Virus record (IMG/VR): IMGVR_UViG_3300031974_000909
Span: 1 to 22,455 of that record
Direction: 5' to 3' (one strand)
From: a virus
Length of the DNA: 22,455 bases
The notes under the pieces: model-generated
Database searches by the model: none
What the model was told of the DNA's origin: nothing
The model's input: only the letters and a program-made list of their open reading frames with translations
Made by a program: the position numbers and the translations under genes
In this document: piece by piece, positions 12,906-20,959 of the stretch
How positions within the stretch are numbered: position 1 is the stretch's first letter
Layout of the letters: each line of letters opens with the position of its first letter

Positions 12906-12914
12906 GATACTATC

Positions 12915-12943
12915 ATTATAGATACTTTATAAAGGTTTGTCAA
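12915..12943 (-). promoter_or_regulatory. consensus sigma70 promoter for the structural operon
   Basis: On the minus strand TTGACA (12943-12938), a 17-base spacer and TATAAT (12920-12915) match the consensus at all 12 positions. The predicted start is about 12907-12909, i.e. 2-5 bases before the small terminase ATG. A CTTTATAAAG palindrome (12925-12934) lies in the spacer, where a bound protein would block RNA polymerase. Confidence 0.9.
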
Positions 12944-12981
12944 GTCATTTGTAAATATTTAGCTTTATTTCCCAAAAGGTC

Positions 12982-13010
12982 TTGACAAATGGAAAATAAA
13001 CATGTATAAT
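12982..13010 (+). promoter_or_regulatory. consensus sigma70 promoter, rightward
   Basis: TTGACA (12982-12987), 17 bases, TATAAT (13005-13010): a full match to the consensus. The expected start is near 13017. It lies back-to-back with the leftward promoter, with 38 bp between the two -35 boxes. The nearest sizeable gene begins 850 bases downstream, so the product is either a long leader or a non-coding RNA. Confidence 0.9.
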
Positions 13011-13023
13011 AGGATTGTTCCGC

Positions 13024-13053
13024 TGGGAGGGTTGAATATATATATTACTCCCA
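13024..13053 (+). other. hairpin at the start of the rightward transcript
   Basis: TGGGAG (13024-13029) pairs with CTCCCA (13048-13053), and the loop contains the 12-bp self-complementary AATATATATATT (13035-13046), so an extended stem can form. It begins within about 10 bases of the predicted transcript start and could protect the 5' end or regulate early transcription. Confidence 0.5.
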
Positions 13054-13087
13054 CTTAACAAGCCTTATAAAGCCCCAATAAAACCCT

Positions 13088-13171
13088 ATGAAACTTGACA
13101 AATTGAAATATCAATTAGAATTATTATTCCTTATATTTCTATTTATCTTTAGTGTGCAAAGCACTGTCTAG
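13088..13171 (+). CDS. possible 27-aa hydrophobic peptide
   Basis: An ATG frame of 27 codons (MKLDKLKYQLELLFLIFLFI then FSVQSTV) would encode a short charged head and a transmembrane-like stretch. It lies about 70 bases downstream of the strong right promoter. There is no Shine-Dalgarno site, so this may be chance in AT-rich DNA. It resembles in layout the 25-aa peptide at 17009. Confidence 0.25.
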   Translation: MKLDKLKYQLELLFLIFLFIFSVQSTV

Positions 13172-13270
13172 TCTTGTTCATATTTATATAACTTTATAAA
13201 GTTTTATAAAGATTATATGGGGCTGGTTAATATCTAAAATTACCTAGAAATGTGTAACAACTATATATAT

Positions 13271-13305
13271 GTAGGGGTGGGGGTAGGTGGCTCCTGCCCT
13301 GCCCT
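13271..13305. other. isolated G-rich/C-rich hairpin
   Basis: A G-run stretch (GTAGGGGTGGGGGTAGG) is followed after 5 bases by a C-rich partner (CCTGCCCTGCCCT). With wobble pairs and a bulge they form a long stem, and the G-runs alone could adopt a quadruplex. It is the most G/C-rich patch in the intergenic region. It might be a transcription pause, termination or replication element; nothing more can be said. Confidence 0.45.
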
Positions 13306-13547
13306 GTTATGTTATAACATTACACTTCAAAAAGCTTGATAAATCAGCACCTAACACACTTTATAAAGTTTGTCAAGTCTTTTCAATGTGGAAATTTTCC
13401 TATCACACTTTATAAAGTTTGTCAAGTGTCAAATCAAATTTAAAAAACTTTACAAATTTTACAAGCTGGTTAAAAAACCTTTTGCAAGTTGTAAAGTCTT
13501 TATAAAGTTATATTATATTATCACTATACTTTATAAAGGTTGCATAT

Positions 13548-13865: not shown

Positions 13866-14069
13866 ATGGAAATTAAGATTTCTAAAAATGCACTTAGGAA
13901 GCATAGGAAATATGGTGTTCCAATTACTTATGTTGACTGCTATAAGGAAGATAAAAAGCTTTCAGCGGTTGCAAAGGGTAAGGGGATTGTTAATGAGTAT
14001 TACCACTTTTTTGATTCTCATATTCCTTGCATGAATCCTAGAACGCATTTGATTAAAATGGGCTACTAA
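13866..14069 (+). CDS. small early protein (67 aa)
   Basis: A 67-residue basic protein (starts MEIKISKNALRKHRKYGVPI, later NEYYHFFDSHIPCMNPRTHL). No family is recognised. AAAGGGG (about 13853-13859) is a suitable ribosome site. It is the first sizeable gene of the rightward block, has its own promoter, and its stop codon lies inside a terminator, so it is a single-gene unit. That position suits an early host-takeover protein, but this is inference. Confidence 0.7.
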   Translation: MEIKISKNALRKHRKYGVPITYVDCYKEDKKLSAVAKGKGIVNEYYHFFDSHIPCMNPRTHLIKMGY

Positions 14070-14089
14070 AAAATAGTAGCCTTTTTTTT
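14061..14089 (+). terminator. intrinsic terminator after the first early gene
   Basis: GGCTACTA (14061-14068), loop AAAAA, TAGTAGCC (14074-14081) and eight T residues (14082-14089). The perfect 8-bp stem starts in the last two codons and includes the stop TAA. It ends the first early transcript. Confidence 0.92.
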
Positions 14090-14127: not shown

Positions 14128-14411
14128 TATTGTTATTGCTGAATAGCTGAGATAGTGAAAGGCACTTTAAAAGGTTTAATTTGGTTGTGCATTAGAAGAG
14201 ATAGGGCTATTTACGCCTATACAAAATAATTAACTTGCACAACAAGGGAGCATGAGAAATATTAGCGTAAAGAAATTTAAAAGATAACCTACATAAAACT
14301 CACCCGAACTTTTACAGACATCATTGCGATTGTAAGAGTAAATTCCCATTTCTGCTAGTTGATGGGTACAAACTAACTAGCATTTTTAACTTTAAAAAGG
14401 AGCATAAAATT
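14128..14411 (+). ncRNA. structured leader with terminal H-type pseudoknot
   Basis: No gene lies in this ~280-base stretch before the gene at 14412. On the plus strand it has GTTGTGCA (14184-14191) with TGCACAAC (14236-14243), enclosing ATAGG (14201-14205) with CCTAT (14216-14220). Then CTTTTACA (14309-14316) pairs with TGTAAGAG (14331-14338). Finally there are interleaved pairs: CCCAT (14345-14349) with ATGGG (14362-14366), and TGCTAGTT (14353-14360) with AACTAGCA (14375-14382), followed by TTTTT (14383-14387) and the ribosome site AAAAAGGAG (about 14395-14402). The order is that of an H-type pseudoknot next to a T-run and ribosome site, as in riboswitches or attenuators. An 11-codon frame at 14252 is probably not meaningful. 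Confidence 0.5.
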
Positions 14412-14618
14412 ATGAAATTATTTAATATAAAAACTTTTGAAGATAGGTATAACCCTAAAAAGAAATTCCATCATTTTAATATTATGGGGTTAAGGTTTAG
14501 AGTTGCCAACAATAAAAGAACCTATCGCACAAGGTGGGAAACAGTCTACAAGACTGAGCGAGGCATTGTGTTCAATGGGTTCGATAATCGTTATCTATGT
14601 TTGATAACTAAGAGGTAA
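14412..14618 (+). CDS. small basic protein (68 aa)
   Basis: A 68-residue basic protein rich in Arg, Lys and aromatic residues (MKLFNIKTFEDRYNPKKKFH, then NIMGLRFRVANNKRTYRTRW). No family is recognised. Ribosome site AAGGAG stands 9-10 bases before the ATG. It ends 4 bases before the gp88-like gene, so the two are probably co-transcribed under the same structured leader. Confidence 0.7.
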   Translation: MKLFNIKTFEDRYNPKKKFHHFNIMGLRFRVANNKRTYRTRWETVYKTERGIVFNGFDNRYLCLITKR

Positions 14619-14622
14619 GACA

Positions 14623-15342
14623 ATGAAATTATTAACAGTAAATGGTAATCCTAAATTGGTAAAGGGTGATAAGCTTTCAGATAAATATCTATCAGCGATT
14701 ATGCACCTATCGCCAATCAATACAAGGATATGCCCCTATCAAGATATCGCTAAGTGCAAGGAAGCGTGTTTAAATACAGCAGGGCGTGGCGGTATCTTCA
14801 AAAAGGGTGAGACTACTAACACTATACAAGAAGCTAGAAAGCGGAAGACTGATCTATTCTTAAACGATAGAGCTACTTTCATGGAGCTACTTGTAAAAGA
14901 TATACAAGCTTTTGTGAGAAAGTGTGAAAGGCTAGGCAAAAAACCTTGTATCCGGTTAAATGGTACAAGCGATATTCAATGGGAGTTGATACCGGTTGAC
15001 AACTATGCTAACATCTTTGAAATGTTTAGTGATGTGCAGTTTTATGACTATACCAAGATACCTACAAGAAAGGTATCACATATCAAGAACTATCACTTAA
15101 CATGGAGCTACAGTGAAGCTAACGACAAATACGCTAGACTGTTTGAGCAAGTGCCATATAATAAAGCGGTGGTGTTTCATGGTGGATTACCTAGTATATT
15201 CAAGGGCATGAAAGTCATTGACGGAGATACAACGGATATGAGATTTTTAGATAAGGCTAATAGGGTTATTGGTCTTAAAGCAAAAGGCAAAGCTAGAAAA
15301 GACACTAGCGGATTTGTTATACAGACTTTGCAAATTGCATAG
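14623..15342 (+). CDS. gp88-like phage protein (239 aa)
   Basis: The sequence matches the 'gene product 88' family named after mycobacteriophage gp88. It has a start of VNGNPKLVKGD, then a Cys cluster C37-x7-C45-x3-C49 (ICPYQDIAKCKEACLNTAGRG), IQEARKRKTDLFL, IRLNGTSDIQW (~110-120) and a C-terminal VIDGDTTDMRFLD followed by GLKAKGKARKDTSGFVI. The family is widespread in phages; biochemical function is not established to my knowledge. The Cys spacing and barrel-like strand pattern would allow a metal or Fe-S centre, which is inference. The length of 239 suits the family. It lies among early genes, far from structural ones, favouring a role during takeover or replication. Confidence 0.8.
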   Translation: MKLLTVNGNPKLVKGDKLSDKYLSAIMHLSPINTRICPYQDIAKCKEACLNTAGRGGIFKKGETTNTIQEARKRKTDLFLNDRATFMELLVKDIQAFVRKCERLGKKPCIRLNGTSDIQWELIPVDNYANIFEMFSDVQFYDYTKIPTRKVSHIKNYHLTWSYSEANDKYARLFEQVPYNKAVVFHGGLPSIFKGMKVIDGDTTDMRFLDKANRVIGLKAKGKARKDTSGFVIQTLQIA

Positions 15343-16193: not shown

Positions 16194-16434
16194 AGAAGAG
16201 AAAATAGTTGCAACCGCATTCTTTATGGGGTATACTTTGCAATTCGATTACAAGAAAGTTGAGGAAACAGTTGCTCAACCTAGAACATTGGTGACTATAT
16301 CCGATATGAAATACAATCACGATAGTGAGATATTGATTGGAGGTTGTATCAATAACGAGGGTGAGTATCGCCAATTCTTTTTGGAGAATATGTCTAACAT
16401 TGTATGTTGGAAAAGAATACCGGTTGAGGTATAA
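16186..16434 (+). CDS. hypothetical protein (82 aa)
   Basis: Start ATG 16186-16188 is chosen because GGGAG (about 16174-16178) fits as ribosome site and it overlaps the previous gene's end by 8 bases. The 82-residue product (MIKEEKIVATAFFMGYTLQF, later VTISDMKYNHDSEILIGG) looks beta-rich and soluble. The -10 box of the promoter at 16407-16435 includes its stop codon. Confidence 0.6.
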   Translation: MIKEEKIVATAFFMGYTLQFDYKKVEETVAQPRTLVTISDMKYNHDSEILIGGCINNEGEYRQFFLENMSNIVCWKRIPVEV

Positions 16435-16435
16435 T
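16407..16435 (+). promoter_or_regulatory. promoter for the structured RNA region
   Basis: TTGGAA (16407-16412, 4 of 6), 17-base spacer, TATAAT (16430-16435, 6 of 6). The predicted start, about 16441-16443, coincides with the first base of an 8-bp stem (16441-16448 with 16529-16536), as expected of a promoter made for a folded RNA. Confidence 0.75.
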
Positions 16436-16440
16436 AAGTT

Positions 16441-17008
16441 TTGTAAGGTATTCCGGTAAGGGATTACTACAGGAAGGAATTTAAATGTGTTCCTGTTGAG
16501 TGGGTTTACAAGCACTCTATAAACACCGCCTTACAATTTTTGTAGTTGGGAAAGAGCCTTTGTAAAATCCTTTGAAAGATAAGGTTAAGGATAAAAGTAA
16601 ATGAGAACTAAACCTTCATGCACTAACTACATTTTTGACAGAGTAGTCCATACATAGTATCGGCTGAGTTGTCAACTCTCACCAGTCCCTAGCGTGTGAG
16701 TATAAAGCTTAGAGTAGGGAGTTTGGTTTACTTTAAAACTAGTGTTGACAGGCACTTAAAAAACCGATAGTTATGTTGCTGTTGGAGGAGTTGGTAGTCA
16801 TCTCCGGAACTAGAAAACTACCACAGTTTACAAGCTTTGCTAGGTTGTAATGAATAGCACAGTTAAATAAGGAGGAAAACCTTCTTAGTTAATTTCTACG
16901 CTGACGAGGTGTTAGCAAGGGCAACAGGTAAGCCTATTTTAAATTACCTACGCTATGAGTTATGACCTAGCCTAGTCCTTTGGACTAAAATATTAATAGG
17001 AGAACGAT
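16441..17008 (+). ncRNA. candidate large structured non-coding RNA (~570 nt)
   Basis: No convincing gene is present on either strand, although the window is otherwise densely coding. Perfect stems follow one another. First: TTGTAAGG (16441) with CCTTACAA (16529), enclosing ACAGGAA/TTCCTGT (16469/16490) and GAGTG/CACTC (16498/16513), then TTTTT. Second: TGTAGTT (16541) with AACTACA (16625), then TTTTT. Third: TATCGG (16658) with CCGATA (16764), enclosing GAGTT/AACTC (16666/16674) and TCCCTA/TAGGGA (16686/16715). Fourth: TGGTAGT/ACTACCA (16792/16817). Fifth: TTACAA/TTGTAA (16828/16845). Last: TAGTCC/GGACTA (16973/16982). Long phage RNAs such as GOLLD and ROOL are a possible comparison; no homology is claimed. 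Confidence 0.55.
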
Positions 17009-17086
17009 ATGAAATTTGATACAATGACTAAGGTAGCATTCGCAGGATTGCTAATAACTTTACTATATTTATGGAGTATACTATGA
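17009..17086 (+). CDS. tiny membrane peptide (25 aa)
   Basis: ATG at 17009 with ribosome site AGGAG (16998-17002, 6 bases upstream) and stop TGA (17084-17086) overlapping the next gene's start region. The product, MKFDTMTKVAFAGLLITLLY plus LWSIL, is a short head and one transmembrane helix. It could be a membrane-active or regulatory peptide. A good ribosome site and coupling make it likely to be translated. Confidence 0.55.
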   Translation: MKFDTMTKVAFAGLLITLLYLWSIL

Positions 17087-20133: not shown

Positions 20134-20250
20134 GTATACTATGGGATTGCCCTCACTAAACAATACCTTCCTTTAACTCATGGTATCCGACATCAGGTCG
20201 GACAAGTTGCCGGTCTTGTGCCACTAACCGGCTTTACATTTGGAGGGCAA
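20134..20250 (+). ncRNA. structured leader: hairpin plus H-type pseudoknot
   Basis: After the preceding stop, TCCGAC (20186-20191), loop ATCAG, GTCGGA (20197-20202) form a perfect hairpin. Then ACAAG (20202-20206) pairs with CTTGT (20215-20219), and GCCGGT (20209-20214) pairs with ACCGGC (20227-20232), an interleaved H-type pseudoknot with a 7-base third loop. TTT (20233-20235) and the ribosome site GGAGG (20242-20246) follow. It is G/C-rich compared with its neighbours, so chance pairing is less likely. It could act as a riboswitch, protein-binding site or translation control for the gene at 20251. Confidence 0.6.
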
Positions 20251-20499
20251 ATGGAATTATATTTTAAATCTGAAAAACTTAACCAAGATGTTCAATGGAT
20301 TTGGACGGACATGGAAAAGGCTTACTGGCAAACTTGGATACCTAAGAAGTCTAATCTAAAAATCTTATCCAAGCTATCTAAAGATGAACTGCAAATTGCA
20401 AAGGACGAGTTATGGGATAACTTGCAAGACAGCATTCAGTTTACAAGAGATCAAATTAATTTTAAAAAGCGACAGAAAAGACTTGCAAAGAAGTCTTAA
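20251..20499 (+). CDS. hypothetical protein under the pseudoknot leader (82 aa)
   Basis: ATG at 20251 follows GGAGG by 4 bases; an in-frame GTG at 20218 lies inside the pseudoknot and is unlikely to be the start. The product (MELYFKSEKLNQDVQWIWTD, then helices LSKLSKDELQIAKDELWDNL and a basic tail) has no recognised family. If the leader is a regulatory RNA, this gene is its probable target. Confidence 0.65.
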   Translation: MELYFKSEKLNQDVQWIWTDMEKAYWQTWIPKKSNLKILSKLSKDELQIAKDELWDNLQDSIQFTRDQINFKKRQKRLAKKS

Positions 20500-20545: not shown

Positions 20546-20959
20546 ATGTTTGAGTATGTAAAAGGTAAGGCTATGTGGGCTAACATCACATCGCCTAACA
20601 CGAGGTTCCAGCCTCACAAGTATGGCTTGACAGTTCTTACTGACCAAGAGACAGCCGATAAGCTAGAGAGCTTGGGGTTATCTCAGGTTAGAGCAAGAAC
20701 CGGAGAGCTTAAATATGAAGAACCTGCTTTCACTTTCTCAAGGAGAGCAGAGAGAAACGATGGTACTTCTAACGATGCACCTAAACTTCTTGACTCTGAT
20801 GGTAATGCATTGGATTCATTGGTTGGTAATGGTTCAGAAGTGACTGTTAAAATTAAACCTTACAAGAATAACTACGGTAGCTTTGCTGAGTTGATTGCTG
20901 TTAAAGTAGACAACTTGGTTGAGTATTCCGAAGCTGATTCTGATAATGAGGAGTTTTAG
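20546..20959 (+). CDS. single-stranded DNA-binding protein, gp2.5-like (137 aa)
   Basis: A 137-residue protein beginning MFEYVKGKAMWANITSPNTR. It is predicted beta-rich (OB-fold pattern: strands around ~1-10, ~25-35 and ~95-125, EVTVKIKPYKNNYGSFAELI) and has an acidic tail that ends in Phe (EADSDNEEF). An acidic tail with a terminal Phe is the known hallmark of T7 gp2.5, where it contacts polymerase and helicase. It would coat ssDNA and organise the replisome. Directly downstream are an acidic small gene and the primase-helicase, a fitting context. Ribosome site GGAGG lies about 8 bases before the ATG. The OB-fold call is inference from pattern. Confidence 0.72.
   Translation: MFEYVKGKAMWANITSPNTRFQPHKYGLTVLTDQETADKLESLGLSQVRARTGELKYEEPAFTFSRRAERNDGTSNDAPKLLDSDGNALDSLVGNGSEVTVKIKPYKNNYGSFAELIAVKVDNLVEYSEADSDNEEF

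Follow-up and report, generated by a model that had tools for sequence, protein, structure and literature searches.

Exchangeable RNA pseudoknot modules form chains ahead of genes in an HMO-2011-type marine phage and its relatives

What kind of RNA, if any, is encoded by the gene-free segment at positions 16407-17008 of a 22,455-base virus record (the window, meaning the whole stretch of DNA analyzed)? A preliminary description had proposed a new structured phage RNA with its own promoter and many nested stems, possibly one large molecule of the GOLLD/ROOL type. Since the window terminase (~65% identity) and primase (43-46%) are closest to those of HTVC103P, HTVC104P and HTVC115P, the closest cultured (Pelagibacter) phages, we regard the window as a fragment of an HMO-2011-type marine podovirus. 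For comparison, 80 loci, some of them incomplete contigs, were gathered via relatives of the primase (L-numbers denote these loci and W the window). Conservation of the segment across them in BLASTN searches was patchy.

The segment is indeed without genes: no frame of at least 40 aa occurs on the plus strand within 16460-17008, no conserved protein frame was found in it, and the single antisense ORF of at least 40 aa that overlaps it extends up to 16515. The 25-codon ORF said to follow it is present (MKFDTMTKVAFAGLLITLLYLWSIL), and in both module A and module B the closing stem is indeed followed by a T-run. For the promoter, the sequence is as described but its significance is not, as shuffled sequences contain 3.4 +/- 1.4 such matches per kb; in addition, the -10 reads AGTAAT in the closest relative (L004), so that TATAAT is not conserved there and the match in the window is weak evidence. 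That the stems exceed chance was not confirmed. The folding z of the segment is -3.0, yet coding windows of the same phage gave -2.8, -3.8, -4.2 and -5.6; folding energy was therefore rejected as evidence for a structured RNA, and by stem count and folding energy alone the segment is no better than those coding windows. What lifts the segment beyond chance is comparative evidence, namely covariation, conservation and position, and this evidence resolves it into a series of compact RNA modules, mostly pseudoknots (A, B, F, G, D and a 3' part; Table 1), linked in a chain. The nested multibranch layout proposed earlier is partly wrong, since the best-supported helices cross one another.

Table 1. 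Features of the segment and its borders, in window coordinates.
Feature	Position	Strand	Basis
Sigma-70-like promoter, TTGGAA-17-TATAAT	16407..16435	+	10/12 matches; weak, -10 lost in L004
Module A, closing helix TTGTAAGG/CCTTACAA and two pseudoknots	16441..16536	+	Covariation in 9 sequences
Module B	16538..16633	+	Covariance model, >100 loci; 10/18 pairs two-sided; P5 71/71
Module F, hairpin TTGACA...TGTCAA	16635..16675	+	Post-B sequence compared in ~40 loci
Module G, H-type pseudoknot	16677..16719	+	11 sequences
Linker before D, AGTGTTGACAGGCACT...CCGATAGTTATG	16741..16780	+	Conserved across many relatives
Module D, H-type pseudoknot GGAG-TT-GGTAGT-CAT-CTCC-A-rich loop-ACTACC	16787..16822	+	Class enriched
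3' part, predicted stems including TAAGGAGG/CCTTCTTA	16823..17000	+	Sole relative L004/L161
25-codon ORF, running into the gene that starts at 17083	17009..17086	+	Sequence; kept in L004

Module B consists of a closing helix P1 (16540-16549 with 16622-16631) and helices P2 (AAG/CTT in the window), P3, P4 and P5 (GTA/TGC). Because P5 crosses P2, B is a pseudoknot inside a closing helix, with P4 as a hypervariable hairpin that hosts inserted modules. A covariance model built from an alignment of 22 B sequences recovered diverged copies, and in an alignment of 57 distinct sequences, which was fitted to the structure and hence leans towards it, two-sided changes occur at 10 of 18 pairs. These amount to 123 two-sided cells, compared with 40 +/- 6 after shuffling (0/500 shuffles, a control that ignores phylogeny) and at most 28 when the partners were slid. 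An unfitted MAFFT alignment of the conserved-pattern copies only already displays the change in P2 from GTG/CAC to AAG/CTT, the window version. P5 is complementary in all 71 sequences (shuffled mean 37.5, maximum 50) and takes the forms GTA/TGC, GTA/TAC, ACG/CGT, ATG/CAT and ACA/TGT, with an extended P5 in L038. A short conserved peptide in B (ATG AGA ACT AAA CC..) was considered and rejected, since invariant and variable positions are off codon phase and the ATG is missing in L038.

Pattern searches, which favor conserved copies, placed the best-conserved block of B in 63 viral contigs and a looser version in at least 119; the looser pattern had no match in 84,980 bacterial and archaeal genomes. 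Similarly, a pattern for the first block of the segment matched nine viral contigs and no prokaryote genome. As far as the exact patterns reach, these RNAs are thus phage-specific. BLASTN with the segment and two B sequences gave no real match in 50,697 phage records, and no B was found in HTVC103P or HTVC115P with the B covariance model. At gathering score, neither the window nor any of 15 relatives matched an Rfam family, and permissive scans gave chance-level matches only. Module B is an RNA family absent from Rfam, which adds to the known RNAs an undescribed family with covariation support, carried by marine phages that are largely uncultured (at least 119 contigs). At the end of B in L157 (~1433-1480), 36 bases (CACTAACTACAAATTTGTCCGAGTAAGGAATGGACG) are duplicated, either genuinely or as an assembly artefact.

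Compensatory changes extend beyond B. Module A contains two pseudoknots, one formed by 16450-16454 with 16476-16480 crossing 16470-16475 with 16490-16495, and the other by 16498-16502 with 16513-16517 crossing 16504-16508 with 16520-16524; among nine sequences, 10 of its 29 pairs changed on both sides (23 cells versus 7.8 +/- 2.1 shuffled, 0/500). In module G, CTCAC/GTGAG (16678-16682 with 16696-16700) is joined by the loop helix CCCTA/TAGGG (16687-16691 with 16715-16719), which varies as GCCTA/TAGGC, ACCTA/TAGGT and, in L216, TCCTA/TAGGA. These computational comparisons show that compensatory mutation has maintained A, B and G as genuine RNA folds; together with the lack of an Rfam match, they support the proposal of a new structured phage RNA. 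Module F is more sporadic: it is missing from L004, has one close match (L083), and relatives carry TTGTCCGAG...GGACAA where the window has the F hairpin. The stretch 16674-16800 gave 61 BLASTN rows. Since the 3' part has one relative only, we make no claim on its stems. In the gp07-gp08 gap (~2760-2860) of the cultured phage HTVC115P (L166), the helices TAGGA/TCCTA and ACAGGAA/TTCCTGT cross each other with the same topology as in module A, and this element is a possible diverged relative.

The order of the modules is not fixed. Module A stands before B in the window, after B in L105 and without B in L023, L091, L250 and L252, while in L194 it forms an insert within B, at the P4 hairpin. Even a single gene has different leaders: orthologues of the gene at 20251 are preceded by a D-type pseudoknot (W, L271, L012), by A (L023, L091) or by B (L086, L183, L208, L206, L225, L229), and in L010 and L011 a terminator-like GGGGAG/CTCCCC hairpin with T6 lies before the SD where others have pseudoknots. 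Our comparisons establish computationally that related phages exchange, reorder and nest these modules, so that RNA pseudoknots behave as modules ahead of phage genes. The chains lie on the same strand as the replication genes, upstream of them, and normally end just before an SD; we found no description of such a chain in the open-access literature searched. GOLLD and ROOL are likewise large structured phage RNAs with pseudoknots and a conserved and a variable part (PMC12286853), but here there is no sequence or covariance-model match to them, and although GOLLD and ROOL are often close to tRNA islands, a search for tRNAs in the window found none. A single large RNA of that type is not supported, as the modules are independent, recur alone and elsewhere, are reordered and nested, and the last 180 nt have one relative.

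Such mosaic order, with gene exchange beside the elements, would also be expected of intergenic elements kept as linkers for homology-based recombination, their structure being secondary, as has been proposed for the PeSL cassettes of T4. In PMC4503421, PeSLs are described as high-density promoter-terminator motifs of T4-type phages (citing Arbiol 2010 and Comeau 2014), that is, intergenic regulatory cassettes of promoter and stem-loop tied to modular exchange. Compared with cassettes so described, the elements here are complex pseudoknots with compensatory changes, and instead of a promoter with a simple stem-loop in many copies per genome we found one B in 10 of 12 records. Moreover, pairing persists as the sequence diverges, whereas exchange by homology would require the reverse. 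Our covariation results already fit poorly with recombination linkers, which we consider distinctly improbable.

Module D belongs to a class of the form S1-TT-S2-S1'-A-rich loop-S2', whose stems are very diverse. The 2.3 Mb of loci contain 32 matches compared with 1-3 in six shuffles, and an SD-like site lies within 30 nt of 22 of the 32 (0 in shuffles, background 21%). A separate scan starting from SD sites found 32 pseudoknots versus a mean of ~3. Since the scan itself requires pairing, covariation is no evidence for D, and its evidence is number and place. D is internal to the chain in the window and closes the chain ahead of the SD in most relatives. An H-type pseudoknot with an A-rich third loop near the SD is also characteristic of the preQ1-I riboswitch; the D class differs from it in having a longer second stem, no Rfam match and an SD outside the fold. 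The window contains two further pre-SD pseudoknots. One (14345-14402; CCCAT-TTC-TGCTAGT-TG-ATGGG-TACAAACTA-ACTAGCA) lies 15 nt ahead of the SD that serves the gene at 14412 and has covarying versions ahead of another gene in L121, L117 and L156. The other (20202-20251; ACAAG-TT-GCCGGT-CTTGT-GCCACTA-ACCGGC) is followed by GGAGG and the ATG at 20251, which is probably the true gene start, since the listed ORF start at 20218 would fall inside the pseudoknot.

The structures are well supported, and from them we infer, tentatively and with a probability of roughly 45%, that the segment is a modular, pseudoknot-rich mRNA leader that controls translation or mRNA stability in cis. We favor this reading on two grounds: different modules can stand in for one another immediately ahead of a single gene's SD, and D-class pseudoknots are associated with SD sites. 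The leader would be part of a transcript from the early region of the HMO-2011-type podovirus. In it, one compact pseudoknot module (D, A or B) would sit beside the ribosome-binding site and a linker that is short, AU-rich and single-stranded. From this position, the module would control translation or decay of the downstream mRNA, probably via a bound phage protein, for which a gp2.5-like single-strand-binding protein (SSB) is the leading candidate by analogy with T4 gene 32. For B, the invariant core suggests binding of one specific partner. In the T4 operator, to which the phage SSB binds, UUAAA elements and then the SD come after a pseudoknot (PMC535899). As in the T4/RB69 operator, the order here is an H-type pseudoknot, an unstructured stretch that is AU-rich and UUAAA-like, and then the SD, with linkers such as CTAATTTTAAA-AGGAGG resembling the UUAAA elements. 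This layout is found in the D class of relatives and at the two further window sites, whereas the D of the segment is internal and not adjacent to an SD. D-class pseudoknots also precede SSB-like genes in several relatives, though not in the window, where the gp2.5-like SSB gene (20546-20959) has no such pseudoknot and one precedes the gene before it. In contrast to the T4/RB69 operator, the elements here stand before many downstream genes and are chained with other modules, SSB binding is putative, and the linker measures 10-20 nt, compared with more than 40 nt for the 3' component of the T4 operator. The analogy opens the testable question of whether phage SSBs act via pseudoknot operators beyond T4.

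In favor of the cis-acting leader we count the compensatory changes in B, across P5 and in A and G, the occurrence of B in at least 119 viral contigs and in none of the prokaryote genomes searched, the location of every examined B copy in an intergenic gap on the coding strand, and the promoters that start RNA at P1 in a third of independent B upstreams. Against it we count that numerous loop bases of B are invariant, more than a plain mRNA stabilizer would require, that the window SSB gene is without a pseudoknot, and that the SD-linked D class is absent from the cultured HMO-2011-type phages HMO-2011, CRP-1, HTVC033P, HTVC103P, HTVC104P and HTVC115P. The most serious objection to action in cis is the combination of a single-copy B, many invariant bases and many unrelated next genes, which suits a trans-acting RNA.

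The surroundings of B bear on both readings. Every examined copy lies in an intergenic gap on the coding strand; 10 of 12 records of 34-52 kb have one copy and the other two have none. Upstream of B are promoters, stop codons, D pseudoknots or A, and downstream are F, G, D or A, other elements, or the SD directly; the next gene belongs to any of 31 unrelated families. A sigma-70-like promoter that would start RNA at P1 was identified in 14 of 44 independent B upstreams, whereas three control windows gave 1 of 44 each. In L137, L139, L107 and L112, at about 20-60 nt upstream of B, TGTNACA recurs in tandem every 11 bp and a TATGAT/TATGGT box follows, an arrangement that would suit an activator of transcription bound along a single face of the helix.

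Alternatively, the chain may be, or be processed into, a stable noncoding RNA that acts in trans, with B as its core and the other pseudoknots as peripheral elements that protect it or bind partners. The single B in most records, its invariant loops, the 31 downstream families, the promoters starting at P1 and the insertion of modules into the P4 loop, as expected of peripheral domains, are consistent with such an RNA. However, no common terminator follows the chain, modules also occur right before SD sites and between cistrons, and gene content revealed no protein partner (nine B-positive versus four B-negative genomes); we consider a trans-acting RNA possible but somewhat unlikely. More doubtful is an elaboration in which a phage RNA evolves by domain shuffling, like a multidomain protein, with a trans-acting B core and changing pseudoknot modules that would each recognize a different host or phage factor. 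If true, attached or inserted modules could be decoys for RNA-recognizing defenses.

Two further functions have been weighed for B. As a riboswitch-like aptamer, B would bind a ligand that stabilizes the P2/P5 pseudoknot and P1 and thereby alters downstream transcription or translation. The closed fold of ~90 nt with a conserved core and a pseudoknot, often followed by a T-run and an SD, fits this, but the downstream genes share no pathway, no Rfam riboswitch matched, and alternative pairing with the SD is hypothetical, which makes an aptamer improbable. A replication origin or primer RNA is highly improbable. Consistent with it, B occurs once per record and lies upstream of the primase on the same strand in all contigs holding both except L210, but its distance ranges from 48 to 5586 nt, a spread of over 5.5 kb. 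Cumulative GC skew across the window reaches its minimum at 13.8 kb, at the switch in gene orientation, rather than at B; an origin at B was rejected on this ground.

Finally, the pseudo-ToxI of phage PhiTE prompted the idea that the pseudoknots are decoys, mimicking the antitoxins of type III toxin-antitoxin systems or other targets of RNA-recognizing defenses and diversified by shuffling. Type III antitoxins (ToxI, CptI) are small H-type pseudoknots that phage RNA can carry; ToxI units of ~34-36 nt occur in arrays, and PhiTE has a pseudo-ToxI (PMC3475682, PMC5086642). D is similar in size, has an A-rich loop and stems that vary greatly. Nevertheless, tandem repeats of one unit are absent, the modules differ from one another, no toxin gene was seen among the diverse downstream families, and Rfam gave no match; D is linked to SD sites, for which a decoy has no use, and B is far larger and conserved. 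We consider decoys unlikely as a general account; whether exchangeable phage RNA domains act as decoys against RNA-recognizing defenses is a testable question.

Other regions of the window and its relatives yielded minor observations. In L197 (2064-2163, minus strand), a sub-threshold match to the Rfam tryptophan operon leader scored 31.3 bits (gathering score 41). The gene at 14623-15342 of the window belongs to Pfam GP88 (PF17338), a family of unknown function. The strand-switch gap at 12906-13369 combines strong predicted folding (z = -4.0) with a TTGACA-17-TATAAT promoter. At the end of the gene at 13866-14069, GGCTACTAAAAAATAGTAGCC followed by eight T (14061-14089) is a clear intrinsic terminator, with a TTGACA promoter-like site 3' of it.
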